Of a stretch of 64,000 nt of DNA, positions 35,306 through 41,728 are shown piece after piece. How positions within the stretch are numbered: the stretch's first letter is position 1; each line of letters starts with the position of its first letter. Under the pieces are notes generated by a model. It had not been told where the DNA came from. It made no database searches and worked only from the letters and a program-made list of their open reading frames with translations. The position numbers were made by a program, and so were the translations under genes. The stretch comes from Rubrobacter taiwanensis (GTDB lineage: Bacteria > Actinomycetota > Rubrobacteria > Rubrobacterales > Rubrobacteraceae): contig NZ_SKBU01000003.1 in assembly GCF_004337705.1 (NCBI RefSeq), forward strand, positions 1 to 64,000, given 5' to 3'.

Positions 35306-35449
35306 TTATTCTTCCTTGCTGATCCAGTACGTGAACAGCAGCGCGCTGCCGAAGATTATCGCGATGAGGAAGAAGGCAGCGAAGAACCTGAACAGGCCGA
35401 CCGTGTCCAGGCCGTTCTGCTGCAGCAGTATCAGTGCGGCATCTGCCAT
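35306..35449 (-). CDS. Small single-helix membrane protein of the respiratory cluster (47 aa)
   Basis: This protein has a short N-terminus (MADAALILLQQNGLDTVG), one strong transmembrane helix (FFAAFFLIAIIFGSALLF) and the acidic end SKEE. The ATG follows GGAGGAGGGGG and lies 3 bases after the stop of the CydA-like gene, so it is the last gene of the operon. Small one-helix subunits such as CydX accompany bd oxidases, and bc/b6f complexes also have single-helix subunits. A structural subunit is therefore likely, but no sequence match to CydX is claimed. Confidence 0.75.
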   Translation of the reverse strand: MADAALILLQQNGLDTVGLFRFFAAFFLIAIIFGSALLFTYWISKEE

Positions 35450-35452
35450 CGC

Positions 35453-36799
35453 CTAGCCCCCTCCTCCTTGCACTTCCTCGGGCGCAACCCCGGCGGGGCA
35501 TCCCTCCTGGACGATCTCCTGATCCATGGTGATGCAGTTGTAGAGCAGGTAGCCCGGATCGTCGTCCAGCCGGCGCGCCGTCTCCCTGGTGTAGCCCATC
35601 GTGATCATGGTAAGTACCACCACCACGGCGCACGTCATGAGCGCCCACTGGCTCCAGCGGCTGGAGCCTCCCCAGTGGAACCCCTCGGCCGTGGCCTTCA
35701 GGTAGATCGCCAGAACGAAGAGCCCCACGATCATCATCCCGATAAGCCCGATGTACTTCCACGGGTACATCGACCCGAGCGGGATGAGGGTGTCCTGCCC
35801 GTCGGCGAAGACCAGCCCCAGCTGCGGCACCAGACTGGCGTTGGAGGGGATCAGGTTCAGAGCGCTGAAGAGCGCCATGAAAGCCAGAGCACCCACCGAC
35901 ATCTTGCGAATCGTCTCCATCGGCCGCACGGCGAAGCGCAGCCGGTGCAGGAAGTAGGCCACCGAAGCGACGCCCATGATCGCCATCCAGACCATGAGCA
36001 GGTTGAACGTCCACGCCTTGTCGCCGAGCATGATGACGTTGAAAGCCTCCGGAGAGCTCTCCCGGATCGCCTTGAGATAGCCGTAGCCGATGACCGGCTG
36101 CAGGATGGTGAACCCGAAGCCCCAGATCATGCCCCAGTGCCCCATCCAGTCGTAGTACTCCCGGTCATCCTCGCGCACAGAGCGCAGGTAGCGCCACGCA
36201 GCCCACCCGGCGATCAAAAACCCGGCGTAGCCGAAGTTGCCCACGAAACGGTGCATGTTGAGCGGGACGAAGGTCTGGTTCAGGAACGCCCGCCCCAGAT
36301 CGGTAGCCGGAGCCTCGGCGGGGGTGAGCATGTAGGAGGCCACCGCGTTGATCATGGTCATCGCCATCAGGCCGAAGAAACCGGCGATGAATCCGAAGAC
36401 CACGTGCAGGCTCTTGCGGTAGGCCAGCTTGTCCCACACGTTGTACCAGGCGTAGACGATGATGATCTGACCGAGGAACATGAACGCCTCGACCAGAAAC
36501 ACCCAGAAGAAGATGTTCTGCAGGTAGCTGAAGAAGACGGGGAAGAGCGTGATCAAAGCCAGAACGAACGTTATCGCCAGCGCCGCGCCCGAGGCGAAGA
36601 GCAGAACCACAAACCGGGCCAGCGAACGGGCGAACCGCTCGTACTTGGGCTGCTTGGTGACCATGCCCATGTACTCGCTGGTCGCAGCGATGATCACGGC
36701 CCCGATGATGAACGCGGCGAAGAGGATGTGGGTCTGGACTAGTACGGCAATGGTGGCGTTCTTGCCGAGTACGGGTACGTCCAAATCTCCTATAGGCAC
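35453..36799 (-). CDS. CydA-like heme subunit I (cytochrome bd superfamily)
   Basis: This 448-aa protein has about nine helices. His24 (VQTHILFAAF) and His183 (NMHRFVGN) correspond to the heme b595 and b558 axial His of E. coli CydA. A Glu (E104) lies in the third helix. The quinol-binding GRQPW motif is missing; at that place it reads YTRETARRLDDD. The usual Met ligand region reads WKYIGLIGMM and may not supply Met. No CydB is encoded nearby. These traits fit the oxidoreductase (OR) branches of the superfamily, which are not thought to oxidise quinol themselves. Confidence 0.85.
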   Translation of the reverse strand: MPIGDLDVPVLGKNATIAVLVQTHILFAAFIIGAVIIAATSEYMGMVTKQPKYERFARSLARFVVLLFASGAALAITFVLALITLFPVFFSYLQNIFFWVFLVEAFMFLGQIIIVYAWYNVWDKLAYRKSLHVVFGFIAGFFGLMAMTMINAVASYMLTPAEAPATDLGRAFLNQTFVPLNMHRFVGNFGYAGFLIAGWAAWRYLRSVREDDREYYDWMGHWGMIWGFGFTILQPVIGYGYLKAIRESSPEAFNVIMLGDKAWTFNLLMVWMAIMGVASVAYFLHRLRFAVRPMETIRKMSVGALAFMALFSALNLIPSNASLVPQLGLVFADGQDTLIPLGSMYPWKYIGLIGMMIVGLFVLAIYLKATAEGFHWGGSSRWSQWALMTCAVVVVLTMITMGYTRETARRLDDDPGYLLYNCITMDQEIVQEGCPAGVAPEEVQGGGG

Positions 36800-36811
36800 C
36801 TCTATCCTCCT

Positions 36812-37315
36812 CTAGCCCTGCGGGAAGTTAATAACCCGGCTGATGGCCAGCAGCATGTTCAGGACCACGACCATAATGACCAGAAGCCCCGTCACCGTCG
36901 CGAACGGCCGTTTCATCGGGCTGTAGTGCGGGCTGCGGTCCAGCCACGGCACCGCGAACAGGAGCACCACGAAGACCGTGGGGATTATCACGGCTCCGAA
37001 GCTGATGAGCGCGTAGCCGGGGAAGAACATGAGTATCTGCTCGTAGAAGAAGAAGAACCACTCCGGCCGCGGCACATACTGCGTCTCCGCCAGATCCGCC
37101 GGCTCGGCCAGCGGAGCCGGGAACACGTACGAGAGCACCGTGCAGGCAATCAGGAGGGCGGCAGCCACGTAACCGTCCCGGAGCACCTGTCCCGGGAAGA
37201 AGGCCATGGTCTCATCCGGCCGGTCGAAGACGTTCTCCTCGGTTATGACCTCCTCTTCGACCGGCTTCGCCGGAGCGGCCCGGCCCTGGTCCGCGTCCCT
37301 GTGTACTTCCGTCAC
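36812..37315 (-). CDS. Cytochrome b6f/bc-type subunit IV (PetD-like)
   Basis: This 167-aa protein, the C-terminal half of a split cytochrome b, has a soluble N-terminus of about 45 residues and three helices. The Qo-site motif PEWY appears as PEWF (VPRPEWFFFFYEQ). Together with the b6 protein it forms the quinol-oxidising core. It lies between the cytochrome b6 and CydA-like genes with short gaps. Confidence 0.88.
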   Translation of the reverse strand: MTEVHRDADQGRAAPAKPVEEEVITEENVFDRPDETMAFFPGQVLRDGYVAAALLIACTVLSYVFPAPLAEPADLAETQYVPRPEWFFFFYEQILMFFPGYALISFGAVIIPTVFVVLLFAVPWLDRSPHYSPMKRPFATVTGLLVIMVVVLNMLLAISRVINFPQG

Positions 37316-37390
37316 TTCTCACCTCCTCCCGACTGCCCGTATTCTACCCCGAATGCTAACCCTCGCATGCCGGTCCCGTAGTAAGAGCTT

Positions 37391-38176
37391 TTACTCCCGC
37401 CGTTCCTCTTCCTCCTCCCCGAGCCCGTAGCGGCGCTCGTACTCCTCCAGCCGCTGGCGCTCCTTGAGCTTGGCAAGCCGCTCGGTGTACTCGAACTCGG
37501 AGCCGAACTCCCCGTGCCGCCGCAGAAGGTAGAGATGGACCCCGATCAGCGGTGCCAGGATCGCCGGCAGGAGCCACACGTGGATGGCGAAGAATCGCGA
37601 GAGCGTGGCGGGCCCGATCACGTCCCCGCCGATGAGGAAGTTGACCACATACCCCCCGATGAACGGCGAGTAGGAGCCGATCTTGATGCCCACGACGCTG
37701 GCCCAGAAGCCGTCCTGGTCCCACCGGAGCAGGTACCCGGTGAACGCCAGCACGATGACCAGCAGGAAGAGGACGACCCCCACGACCCAGTTGAGCTCCC
37801 GCGGAGCCTTATATGCCCCGCTGAAGAAGGTGCGGGCCATGTGCAGCCCGATCACGGCCATCAGGAAGTTGGCCGACCAGTAGTGGATGCCCCGGATGAG
37901 CTGCCCGAAGTACGCCTCGTTCATGATGTAGTAGACGGAGTTCCAGGCGTGATCCACGGTCGGCACGTAGTAGAAGAGCAGCAGGATGCCGGTCAGAAAC
38001 TGCAGCACGATGAGGAAGAGCGTGGCGCTCCCTAAAGTATAGAGCCAGGCTCCCCGCTTGGGCACCGGCTCGTAGAGGAACTTCTCCATCATGCTGACCG
38101 CGCCGGTGCGATCCTCGATCCAGTCGGCCAGCAGCTTGCCGGTCTCTACGGTCTGCGCCTTGACTCTCCCTATCAT
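37391..38176 (-). CDS. Cytochrome b6-type di-heme subunit (PetB-like)
   Basis: This 261-aa protein has four helices, a heme-ligand pair His98/His112 and a second pair His199/His214. The second pair is separated by 14 residues, the b6-type spacing, against 13 in bc1. RGIHYWSANFLMAVIGLHMA is well conserved. The Cys that carries heme c-n in b6f appears absent near residues 30-45. A long charged tail (about 45 residues) follows the last helix. It is the electron-bifurcating heart of a menaquinol-oxidising complex. Confidence 0.92.
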   Translation of the reverse strand: MIGRVKAQTVETGKLLADWIEDRTGAVSMMEKFLYEPVPKRGAWLYTLGSATLFLIVLQFLTGILLLFYYVPTVDHAWNSVYYIMNEAYFGQLIRGIHYWSANFLMAVIGLHMARTFFSGAYKAPRELNWVVGVVLFLLVIVLAFTGYLLRWDQDGFWASVVGIKIGSYSPFIGGYVVNFLIGGDVIGPATLSRFFAIHVWLLPAILAPLIGVHLYLLRRHGEFGSEFEYTERLAKLKERQRLEEYERRYGLGEEEEERRE

Positions 38177-38189
38177 GCTCCCGGCTCCC

Positions 38190-38825
38190 CTAAACTATAT
38201 ACGGATCCCCGTCGAACTCGTGCGTTATGTAGATGAACCCGTCCTCGCGGATCTCGAACGTGTAGCGGTAGAGATCCCGCGGCGGCGGGCCGCCGATATG
38301 CTCCCCGTTGATGTCGTACAGACCGCCGTGACAGGGGCACAGCAGCTCCTCCACCTCGGCCACCCAGCGCACCGGACACCCCAGATGCGCGCAGGTGCTG
38401 TTCATGACGTTAAGATGCTGCGTGAGCTCCTCGATCTGATCCCGGGAGACCTCGTCCCCCTCGCCGATGCCCCCCAACACCTCCGGCGGTTGGCCGTCGC
38501 GCCAGGAGACCCACACGCCGTTGCGGACCGTGAACTCCTGCTGGGAGACGCCACTCTCCTCCTGGATGCGGTCGTCCCCGTAGGTCTGCCGGATGGGAAA
38601 CTCTATGACGTAGGAGACCGGCTCGCCCTCCGGGATGTTGGCGACGTGATCCACTCGCTCCCACGTACGGAGCACGTCCGACTCTCCCTCGACCTCGGTC
38701 TTAATCAGCGGGGTCAGGACGAACGCAACCGGAGGGATGGTGAGGATGGTGCCCATCACGGCACCTATAACGCCCAGACCCAGAAAGTCGCTTCGGGTTA
38801 TGGGATCTTTCTGTAGCTCCGCCAA
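38190..38825 (-). CDS. Rieske 2Fe-2S protein
   Basis: This 211-aa protein has an N-terminal anchor helix at about residues 14-40 and a C-terminal Rieske fold. Box 1 is CAHLGC (Cys145, His147, disulfide Cys150); box 2 is CPCHGG (Cys163, disulfide Cys165, His166). The N-terminus has only one Arg before the helix (ITRSDFLG), so Tat targeting is possible but not obvious. It takes the first electron from quinol bound at cytochrome b. The normal next acceptor would be a c-type cytochrome, which this operon lacks. Confidence 0.94.
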   Translation of the reverse strand: MAELQKDPITRSDFLGLGVIGAVMGTILTIPPVAFVLTPLIKTEVEGESDVLRTWERVDHVANIPEGEPVSYVIEFPIRQTYGDDRIQEESGVSQQEFTVRNGVWVSWRDGQPPEVLGGIGEGDEVSRDQIEELTQHLNVMNSTCAHLGCPVRWVAEVEELLCPCHGGLYDINGEHIGGPPPRDLYRYTFEIREDGFIYITHEFDGDPYIV

Positions 38826-38836
38826 TCTAACCCTCT

Positions 38837-40150
38837 CTACTCGCCCACCAGCTGCTCGCCGAAGTCAGTCGGCGGCCGCTCCTCCTCCACCTGATATGCA
38901 GGCTGATTATATATCGTGTACGGAACGCGCGAGTTGGACTTCATGAAACCCATGTTGAGGGTCAGCACCGCGGTCAGAACCCCGAGCGCTATCAACACCC
39001 CGCGGTACCACCCGTTGGGGCTGCCGTACCTAAACCTCACCCGCCCCCGGATGTAGGAGACGAGCGCGCCCAGCGTCGCCAGCACCATCACGCCCATCAT
39101 GATGTAGCGCATGTGCAGGAACGGGAACTGGGCGAACGGCGAGATGGCGTACAGCCCGCTCAGCGCCGCGATGAGCCCGAAGATTCTTATCGCGTTGCGC
39201 CCGGCCCGCTCCGGATGCCTCACGGCCCCCAGGTACATCGCCACGTTCGCCAGGATGAACATGCCGACGACCATGATCGTGTTTATGTACAGCAGGCTGG
39301 AGGTCGCCCCGGTAGTGAGCCGGTCGTAAGCCCCGGTCTCACCGGCTATGGCCGGGTCGGCCGGAGCTGCGGCCTGCATGCTCAAGACCAGCAGATACCC
39401 GACCACCGGCATCGTCAGCAGGAAGATGGTCCCCCACATGGTGCCCATCGAGGCCACCCAGTCGTAGTAGGACTTGTCTTCGGCGCTCTTGGCGCGGGCG
39501 TACTTGAAGCCGGCCCAGGCCGCCACCGCGAACGCGGGCCACGAGAGGTTGCCGAACGTCCGGTGCAGCACCATCTCGATGAACATCGGGTTGAACAGGT
39601 TGCGGACCGACTCCACGAACCCCACGGTGAGCGCCTCGTTGCTGATTATCTCCTCCTCTGAGCCCCCGGTGACCATGAAGGTGTCGATGCCGCTCATGAT
39701 CACCATCCACACCCAGATGAAGAAGCCGGCAGCGGCCCCGTACGCTATGTGCCGCCCTTTGTGCACCACGCTGTAGCGGTCCCACTTGTAGTAGTAGACG
39801 TAGATCATCCACAGCGTGAGCACCATAGAGGCCATCGCTATGATGATGAAGTAGAAGAACCCGGTGAAGAGCGCCGCCGTGACCCGCGGGTAGAGCCCGA
39901 CCAGCAGCACCATGAACATGACCGCGAACGTGGCCCCCACGCTGAAGGTCAGGACGTTGAAGCGGATCAGCGACCGGGCCAGCCGCTCCATGCGCGGCTT
40001 GCCGGTGCGGGCTCCCCACCACTCCAGAATCGGCGCGGCCATGGCGTAGCCCACAAAGAGCGTGGCGAAGAAGATGTGGGTGAGCATCACAGCTCCCGTC
40101 AGGAACCGGGCCCCGAAGACCGGGATCTCTATCGCTGGAAGATCTAGCAC
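38837..40150 (-). CDS. Second CydA-like heme subunit (cytochrome bd superfamily)
   Basis: This 437-aa protein has about nine helices. His25 (VMLTHIFFAT) and His194 (MVLHRTFGN) match heme ligands, and FLHMRYIMMG in a late helix may give the Met ligand. GRQPW is absent, replaced by MKSNSRVPY. The third helix carries no acidic residue. It is clearly homologous to the other CydA-like protein (same length, and the pattern HRFVGN versus HRTFGN followed by WAAW/WAGF) but strongly diverged. The two may form a heterodimer like CydAA' or CydAB. Confidence 0.85.
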   Translation of the reverse strand: MLDLPAIEIPVFGARFLTGAVMLTHIFFATLFVGYAMAAPILEWWGARTGKPRMERLARSLIRFNVLTFSVGATFAVMFMVLLVGLYPRVTAALFTGFFYFIIIAMASMVLTLWMIYVYYYKWDRYSVVHKGRHIAYGAAAGFFIWVWMVIMSGIDTFMVTGGSEEEIISNEALTVGFVESVRNLFNPMFIEMVLHRTFGNLSWPAFAVAAWAGFKYARAKSAEDKSYYDWVASMGTMWGTIFLLTMPVVGYLLVLSMQAAAPADPAIAGETGAYDRLTTGATSSLLYINTIMVVGMFILANVAMYLGAVRHPERAGRNAIRIFGLIAALSGLYAISPFAQFPFLHMRYIMMGVMVLATLGALVSYIRGRVRFRYGSPNGWYRGVLIALGVLTAVLTLNMGFMKSNSRVPYTIYNQPAYQVEEERPPTDFGEQLVGE

Positions 40151-40162
40151 TCCATGCCCCTC

Positions 40163-40804
40163 CTAAGCTCCCTGAGCGCCCGAGACGCGCTCACCTCCAC
40201 CACTCGCCCGGACCCGGTGCAGCACGGCCCCGCTGACCGCCTTGGGCTCCAGCTTGCGCTCCACGATGTAGTAGGAGCCGCCGTGCTTCTGGATGATGTC
40301 CCGGGCCCTGCGGATATGCTCCCTGTCCCGGACGACCTGGAAGACGAGGGTCTTGCCCTCCTCGAACTCGTCGTTCCAGAAGCCGGACTCCTCGCGCGGA
40401 GCCTCCATGTCTATGAGGATGGGAGCGACCCCCACCCGGGTGAACGACCCGGCGATCAGGATCGCCGCCAGCGAGATGAAGACTATGAAGGTCGGGATCC
40501 CGATGGCCGGGGTGGTGATGGCGAAGAAGAGGCCGACCACGACGAAGACTATGGCGAAGCCTATCGGCACTTCCATCCCCGAGGAGTTGTCGGGGACGAT
40601 GATGTAGCGCACATCCTCCGGCAGCGACTCGGGCTCCTCAGGGTCCTGGCGCTTGAGGATGACGGTGAGATCGTCCCGCTCGCCGCCCAGAGCTTTCAGC
40701 TCCGCGGCGGCCCGCCCCACGGGATCCCCGTCGTCCAGGATCCCGACTACCGTGTACTCTCCCCGGTCCGCTTCGGTCTCTCGCCGCTCCCGAGCCTCAG
40801 TCAA
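40163..40804 (-). CDS. Two-helix membrane protein with flanking cytosolic domains, first gene of the respiratory cluster
   Basis: This 213-aa protein has an N-terminal alpha/beta domain (VVGILDDGDPVGRAAAELKA), two adjacent helices (about 83-120) and a C-terminal alpha/beta domain (TLVFQVVRDREHIRRARDII). The topology recalls ActD of alternative complex III or DUF1269-type stress proteins, but I see no diagnostic motif. The start TTG follows GGGGAGG. It precedes the second CydA-like gene by 12 bases and presumably assembles with the complex. Confidence 0.7.
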   Translation of the reverse strand: MTEARERRETEADRGEYTVVGILDDGDPVGRAAAELKALGGERDDLTVILKRQDPEEPESLPEDVRYIIVPDNSSGMEVPIGFAIVFVVVGLFFAITTPAIGIPTFIVFISLAAILIAGSFTRVGVAPILIDMEAPREESGFWNDEFEEGKTLVFQVVRDREHIRRARDIIQKHGGSYYIVERKLEPKAVSGAVLHRVRASGGGERVSGAQGA

Positions 40805-41038
40805 GACAGCCTCCCCATCAGAACGCCCCGGGCGTAGATCCCGCCGCGGCTCAACTCCGAGTTGAATCCAGCCATCTCACCGCTTTCGACCCCGATGACA
40901 CAGGACAAACGCACGCGCACAGAATAACATCCCCCCGCTCCGCCGCACCACCCCGGCTGCAAGTTCTTTCACACAAAGACCGCCCGGCGCCGAGAAGATG
41001 TGAACCCGGTCCCGACCGGCCGGGGAGTTTCTTATAAA

Positions 41039-41728
41039 ATGGGGTTCGTGGAGGTCAGGCAGGACAGCGTCGCACAGGCCGGAGAGCAAAGCGGCGGAGA
41101 GTACCGGGAGCGGGGCCTGATACCCTGGTGCAAGCGCAACTCGTGGCTTCTGGTCAGGCTCTTCATGGCGCTGGTCTTCACCTTCGGAGCCTCCACCACG
41201 GCGGCGAACTTCTCCTACGGCCTGCAGGAACAGCCGAAGGTACTCTCGGCGGCGGATCTCAACCGGGGCTACCTGCCGCCCGGGGTCGAACTCGGTGACT
41301 ACGTGGAGATCCGGGGCACGCCGGTCTACGGCGAGGATACGACCAACATAGGCACCGAGGAGTCGGGCATCGCGGTCTCCTCCCGCTACAGCACCTTCTA
41401 CTTCTACTTCCCGCTGCGGGAGACCGGAGACAACCTCCTGATCCAGACCGCCCAGACGCCTCCCGACGTGAACGACCGCGGCGAGCGGGTCTGGCGCGGC
41501 AAGCTGGCCACGGTGGGGACCGTGATCTTCTACAGCACCACCCAGGAATCCCTGGAGCGGGCCGGGCTTCCGCACGCGACCACCATCCCGGTAATAGAGA
41601 CGGGAGACACGCCCGAGTACTACCGGCAGATCTTCCCGGCCTACTCGGCGATCCTGGTGCTCTGGCTCGTCTCGGTAGTCTGGCTGCTCTGGAAGCGCAA
41701 CGCGCCGCTTCAGGGCATGGACAAGTAG
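41039..41728 (+). CDS. Unknown membrane protein with external beta-rich domain
   Basis: This protein has about 229 aa: a soluble N-terminus of some 35 residues, a helix (WLLVRLFMALVFTFGASTTA), an external region of about 130 residues (GVELGDYVEIRGTPVYGEDT, SRYSTFYFYFPLRE) and a C-terminal helix with a short cytoplasmic Arg/Lys tail. ATG 41039 or GTG 41048 may start it. TATAAA lies just upstream, so the transcript could have almost no leader. It is divergent from the respiratory cluster, with 234 bases between. I do not recognise the family. Confidence 0.6.
   Translation: MGFVEVRQDSVAQAGEQSGGEYRERGLIPWCKRNSWLLVRLFMALVFTFGASTTAANFSYGLQEQPKVLSAADLNRGYLPPGVELGDYVEIRGTPVYGEDTTNIGTEESGIAVSSRYSTFYFYFPLRETGDNLLIQTAQTPPDVNDRGERVWRGKLATVGTVIFYSTTQESLERAGLPHATTIPVIETGDTPEYYRQIFPAYSAILVLWLVSVVWLLWKRNAPLQGMDK

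Follow-up and report, generated by a model that had tools for sequence, protein, structure and literature searches.

The first 64,000 nucleotides of contig NZ_SKBU01000003.1 of Rubrobacter taiwanensis (here called the window) contain a seven-gene block, at positions 35306 to 40804, in which the genes for a Rieske protein, a cytochrome b6-type subunit, and a subunit IV lie together with those for two CydA-like proteins (CydA1 and CydA2), a two-helix protein (TM2), and a 47-amino-acid (aa) helix. This block probably encodes one menaquinol:O2 oxidoreductase, that is, a cytochrome c-free functional fusion of complex III and a bd-type oxygen reductase. Somewhat less firmly, we favor a single stable bc-bd complex in which the Rieske protein would reduce hemes of the bd superfamily directly, with neither a c heme nor copper; such a complex would conserve roughly double the charge that a bd quinol oxidase does, and in some aerobes it would be the sole terminal oxidase. 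The first-pass annotation of the window had proposed a self-contained menaquinol oxidase, and the analysis supports it: no COX1, CydB, cytochrome c of the family searched for, or plastocyanin-like protein was found in the host genome (3.04 Mb, 99.7% complete), and the two modules appear to have been duplicated as one block.

Gene content, conservation, and duplication of the block

The seven open reading frames all lie on the minus strand, exactly where the first-pass annotation had placed seven same-strand genes of these types, and their products were confirmed by Pfam as two CydA-like proteins, Cytochrom_B_C, Cytochrome_B, and Rieske. The 47-aa and two-helix proteins matched no Pfam family (at an E value of 0.01 for the two-helix protein). 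The genes are separated by only 3, 12, 75, 13, 11, and 12 bases, short gaps of the kind typical of one operon. None of the seven products contains a CxxCH motif, as had been noticed before, and the motif was also missing from the family members of the loci examined.

A search with CydA2 found the gene in 32 of 39 Rubrobacteria genomes. Among 396 genomes of the phylum, it was restricted to this class apart from two weak partial matches, and the named matches were Rubrobacter species and Rubrobacteraceae metagenome-assembled genomes (MAGs). Gene order was judged on 20 regions from ten genera, 19 of which were complete enough for this purpose. The seven-gene order, when sought in these other genomes, was identical at every complete Rubrobacteria locus (19/19), and an arrangement kept in this way would therefore not be a matter of chance.

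Four genomes (G001, G014, G015, and G023) carry the six large genes twice, the second copies lying at loci L113, L115, L116, and L117. For all six genes, the tree placed the second copies together on one side of a branch, with support of 0.986 to 1.0. The six-gene block is therefore most simply seen as having been duplicated once and inherited as a unit, which makes an independent working of the Rieske/b6 and CydA modules hard to explain. The two kinds of copy also differ in CydA1, which has E at the E107 position in the second copies and Q or another residue there in the primary block.

Ligand patterns of CydA1 and CydA2

CydA1 (448 aa; 35453..36799, minus strand; PF01654, E = 1.7e-22) was compared by alignment with Escherichia coli CydA and the solved Geobacillus CydA. 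It keeps H24, E104, H132, H183, E406, and R409, corresponding to H19, E99, H126, H186, E445, and R448, respectively, and these active-site ligands were invariant or nearly so among 27 sequences. CydA2 (437 aa; 38837..40150, minus strand; PF01654, E = 1.4e-8) keeps H25, H196, and R408 and has no equivalents of E99, E107, and E445. By its homology to CydA and its H19, E99, and E445 ligands, CydA1 is thus a member of the bd superfamily; CydA2 is homologous and has lost the acidic ligands. Because CydA1 retains the active-site ligands that CydA2 has lost in part, CydA1 is predicted to be the catalytic, O2-reducing subunit and CydA2 a noncatalytic electron transfer or structural partner (A′-like).

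Both proteins lack K252, E257, M393, W441, and QPW (E. coli CydA numbering), and the quinol-site residues were missing from all members, so that neither CydA1 nor CydA2 would be expected to bind quinol in the manner of canonical CydA. The first-pass annotation had described the two as a pair in which both proteins keep the two His heme ligands and lack the quinol motif GRQPW. Both are indeed CydA homologues with the H19 and H186 equivalents in place, and QPW is gone from both, but they are not equivalent, as only CydA1 keeps E104 and E406. Nor is GRQPW purely a quinol motif: the longer GWxxxExGRQPW also holds the active-site heme ligand E445, and within it CydA1 retains E and R (E406 and R409) and CydA2 retains R alone. 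In a quick-method tree built with the loci found in this analysis, CydA1 and CydA2 each formed a clade of its own, distinct from canonical CydA (support of 100).

The missing quinol-site residues bear on the possibility that, as in archaeal CydAA′, the CydA1/CydA2 pair oxidizes menaquinol on its own, with Rieske/b6 as a companion or regulator instead of the donor. Archaeal CydAA′ was reportedly shown, by Murali in 2021, to be a quinol oxidase, and CydA1 paralogs that stand alone, with no Rieske/b6 genes, would also be in keeping with such a role. However, every member of both proteins lacks the Q-loop residues K252 and E257 as well as W441 and QPW, and electrons from the Rieske protein would be left without an acceptor in a genome without cytochrome c. 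We therefore regard this explanation as very unlikely.

The C-terminal tail of CydA1 has two invariant cysteines, C422 and C434, where relatives elsewhere have CxxCH; they perhaps form a disulfide.

The Rieske/cytochrome b6 module

The cytochrome b6-type subunit (261 aa; 37391..38176, minus strand; PF00033, E = 8e-48) carries the His pairs H98/H112 and H199/H214, whose spacing of 14 and 15 is of the b6 type. It has no Cys and, for this reason, would have no heme ci (cn). Its best solved relatives were cytochrome b6 proteins of the b6f complex (E = 9.4e-49), and among NCBIfam models it was nearest cytochrome b6, at a score below every curated cutoff. Subunit IV (PetD-like, 167 aa; 36812..37315, minus strand; PF00032) has an invariant Qo motif, PEWF, which is a variant of PEWY.

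The Rieske [2Fe-2S] protein (211 aa; 38190..38825, minus strand; PF00355) reads CAHLGC...LCPCHGG-Y, in which C145, H147, C150, C163, C165, and H166 are invariant. Its HGS motif has become HGG, and this Ser-to-Gly change is also invariant. In yeast, a Rieske protein without the HGS Ser has a potential lower by about 130 mV (PMC12954380). By analogy, the change suggests that the Rieske protein of the block is of low potential, which fits a menaquinol chain. The module as a whole has the bis-His b hemes, the Qo motif, and the Rieske cluster motif of a Rieske/cytochrome b complex and lacks an acceptor of the c1 or f type.

Search for other electron carriers and oxidases

The usual link between complex III and an oxidase is cytochrome c or a cupredoxin. 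A linked c-type cytochrome or a cytochrome oxidase that takes electrons from the Rieske protein, named beforehand in the first-pass annotation as the finding that would speak against a self-contained enzyme, was sought genome-wide and was not found. The host genome gave no match to COX1 with two models, to CydB (PF02322), or to CBB3-type cytochrome c, so that the absence of CydB, first noticed at the locus, extends to the whole genome; it also has no further cytochrome b, with one of the Rieske/b type in all. Cytochrome c was judged absent by family searches of genomes. The cytochrome c assembly protein family PF01578 (CcsA/CcmC/CcmF) was found in none of the 39 Rubrobacteria and in 9 of 14 controls. 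Since each of the two common systems for cytochrome c maturation includes proteins of this family, the class appears to be unable to make c-type cytochromes. Despite this apparent lack of cytochrome c in the class, Rubrobacter radiotolerans RSPS-4 has been reported as positive in the cytochrome oxidase test (PMC4148983).

These searches also help to judge whether one operon encodes two separate enzymes, with Rieske/b6 reducing an extracytoplasmic carrier, CydA1/CydA2 oxidizing it, and no stable complex being formed. Cytochrome c is regarded as the electron donor of OR-type CydA pairs in other organisms (PMC10839748), most of the Desulfobacteraceae and Phycisphaerales pair proteins recovered carry a C-terminal CxxCH, and copper-bind (plastocyanin-like) proteins occur in 12 of the 39 Rubrobacteria, all of which would suit a carrier. 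However, cytochrome c maturation is absent from all 39 genomes, no copper-bind protein was found in the host genome, G014, or G015, and the gene order is strict and the duplication joint. Two separate enzymes are thus unlikely, and direct transfer within one enzyme is preferred.

Across the class, COX1 was found in 2 of 39 genomes and CydB in 21 at an E value of 0.001 or better (19 above the curated cutoff). Both were missing from six genomes (G000, G002, G013, G014, G021, and G022), each 92% complete or better and one of them, G014, a single closed 3.2-Mb contig. Therefore, the CydA-like proteins are the sole O2 reductase candidates found in these six genomes. The host genome is among those for which this holds.

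The same result weakens the alternative, left open by the first-pass annotation, that the CydA pair is a reductase for another acceptor, such as NO or peroxide, and does not reduce O2 for growth. The function of bd-like relatives beyond the canonical family is largely untested (PMC10839748), heme d is not predictable from sequence, and R. radiotolerans, an aerobe, has nitrate listed beside O2 as an electron acceptor (PMC4148983). Yet the class is aerobic (PMC4148983, PMC7901476), and no other O2 reductase was found in the six good-quality genomes without COX1 or CydB, near-complete or closed as they are. Reduction of an acceptor other than O2 is, consequently, very improbable.

Passages of a soil crust study describe Rubrobacteria as having no cytochrome c oxidase and using a “cytochrome bd ubiquinol oxidase”; these passages are silent on the missing quinol site of the CydA-like proteins and on the absence of CydB from part of the class (PMC7901476). 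Rubrobacteria transcripts annotated as “cytochrome bd” rise on rehydration (PMC11519504).

Proposed electron path

In the enzyme that we propose, b6 and subunit IV would together form the Qo site at which menaquinol (menaquinone being the quinone that Rubrobacter presumably uses) is oxidized. Of the electrons released, one would cross the membrane via the two b hemes, in a Q cycle, and the other would pass to the low-potential Rieske center, then, with no carrier between, to a heme in CydA1/CydA2, and finally to O2. CydA1 would hold the two-heme O2-reducing site, and CydA2, as a CydB- or A′-like partner subunit, may carry the electron input heme. Each electron is predicted to yield about 2 charges, of which the Q cycle and O2 reduction would contribute 1 apiece; this figure lies between that of a bd quinol oxidase (1) and that of bc1-aa3 (3).

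Several points weigh against this proposal. Formation of a complex by the block proteins is a prediction made from the genes. M393, which in canonical CydA is the sixth ligand to the low-spin heme, is not conserved in the CydA pair, and the electron entry heme is for this reason only a proposal. The COX1 negative is imperfect, as neither model gave a match in the Corynebacterium glutamicum control, although the two models agree with each other and with a published survey. The search for an alternative oxidase had no working positive control. Some Rubrobacteria also carry CydAB, and three MAGs of one genus (G006, G007, and G008) have neither the block nor a clear COX1 or CydB, owing either to real loss or to assembly gaps. 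Finally, a lone CydA1 paralog (G000:C4:56605-57840; L005:8582-9913) is 85% identical to the CydA1 of the block and has none of the other block genes beside it; proteins of the CydA1 type may thus be functional away from the block as well.

This paralog adjoins a gene for a SufR-like regulator. Lone CydA1 copies were also found in G014 and G015 (L112 and L114), where the SufR-like regulator is absent. No plasmid records with CydA1 relatives were found.

Comparison with known systems

The Sulfolobus oxidase supercomplex, whose O2 reductase is a heme-copper oxidase, is the nearest functional precedent. Like the enzyme proposed for the block, it has Rieske/cytochrome b joined to an oxygen reductase, and it has been reported as a fusion of complexes III and IV that is free of c-type cytochromes (Iwasaki 1995, cited in PMC2946596); in contrast to it, the block has a CydA pair of the bd superfamily and is found in bacteria. 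In Nitrospira, the Rieske/cytochrome b genes of complex III_1 likewise occur with bd-like_1/bd-like_2 (OR-N CydAA′), and a supercomplex of the two has been proposed (PMC6606698, PMC12342949). However, several c-type cytochromes are proposed as electron carriers in the Nitrospira region (PMC6606698), whereas neither such cytochromes nor maturation genes were found in Rubrobacteria.

The OR-type families (OR-N and OR-C) resemble the CydA pair of the block in having no quinol site, in being paired, and in keeping the ligands in one member (PMC10839748). The block thus has the two CydA-like paralogs, without a quinol site or CydB, that mark this type. The donor proposed for the OR type is a linked or fused cytochrome c; in contrast, the Rubrobacteria pair has no CxxCH tail and adjoins Rieske/b6, and its donor is most likely the Rieske protein. 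Canonical cytochrome bd (CydAB) shares CydA homology and the active-site ligands with CydA1, but the block has neither CydB nor the Q-loop, and its second subunit is a CydA paralog. Cytochrome b6f also has a split b6 and subunit IV, a His spacing of 14/15, and a Rieske protein; the block differs from it in lacking cytochrome f and the heme ci cysteine, in having PEWF for PEWY, and in its predicted acceptor, a bd-type pair. The actinobacterial bcc-aa3 supercomplex is, like the enzyme proposed here, a menaquinol-driven complex III-IV unit without soluble cytochrome c; however, its oxidase is of the heme-copper type, and one of its subunits is a diheme cytochrome c.

Both halves of the block belong to known superfamilies. 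In the usual account, aerobic respiration has a heme-copper oxidase, a canonical bd quinol oxidase, or an alternative oxidase as its last step. In the literature searched, we did not find Rieske/b6 joined to a bd-type protein without cytochrome c as the sole candidate oxidase of some genomes in an aerobic bacterial class, an earlier mention being possible. The results suggest a direct joining of complex III to a bd-type oxygen reductase, free of cytochrome c and copper, in an entire bacterial class, and they raise the question of how a Rieske protein could feed a b-type heme. A closed genome in which no other oxidase was found offers a clean experimental case for the function of OR-type CydA and its energy conservation. 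The results also offer a different reading of the reports of a “cytochrome bd ubiquinol oxidase” in Rubrobacteria, which are prominent desert crust bacteria, and indicate that the protein so named is a different enzyme.

Accessory and neighboring proteins

TM2 (213 aa; 40163..40804, minus strand), the first gene product of the block, is conserved in all loci. An AlphaFold2 (AF2) model (pLDDT of 76) has a soluble ferredoxin-like part and two transmembrane helices. Its two best Protein Data Bank folds were both ActD of alternative complex III (8k9e_D, with an E value of 6.7e-3, and 6lod_D), weak matches with a low TM-score; by sequence, it matched neither ActD nor any solved chain, and the likeness to ActD is thus a weak one of fold. 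Weak matches to YflT were found for 13 of 18 TM2 members (best E = 0.0018). TM2 is possibly an accessory subunit, either ActD-like or YflT-like. A Pfam search confined to the block found no subunits of the ActB/ActC type (molybdopterin-like or NrfD-like). The single-helix protein of 47 aa (35306..35449, minus strand), with the C terminus FTYWISKEE, keeps its position in 19 loci and may be a small stabilizing subunit.

A divergent gene encoding 242 aa (41000..41728, plus strand) lies upstream of the primary block at every locus that extends to it and is missing at the second-copy loci. Its AF2 model has low confidence (pLDDT of 64) and gave weak OB-fold matches; the protein probably has an OB-like extracytoplasmic domain between two transmembrane helices. 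A similarly built 200-aa protein beside the CydA pair of Desulfobacteraceae was considered as a counterpart, and no homology was found between the two. The 242-aa protein may serve the primary block as an accessory or assembly factor; like TM2 and the 47-aa helix, it would count among the accessory or assembly subunits of the proposed enzyme.

Relatives outside the class

Outside Actinobacteriota, the distribution is that given by one scan of genome contigs, which recovered relatives in Desulfobacteraceae, Phycisphaerales, another planctomycete, and Calditrichaeota. In the Desulfobacteraceae and Phycisphaerales (L096 to L098), the genes of each CydA pair lie side by side, and four of the six proteins end in CxxCH, which fits the view in the literature of cytochrome c as the OR-type donor. 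The other two lack CxxCH, and one of them, the second member at L097, reads CISYH where its Desulfobacteraceae relative at L096 reads CIGCH; a heme has possibly been lost there. In a Planctomycetota MAG (L100:3329-12076), there are two CydA-like proteins, of 653 and 579 aa, and next after each comes a protein that has two CxxCH motifs; the module is repeated and also includes further multiheme and monoheme cytochromes.

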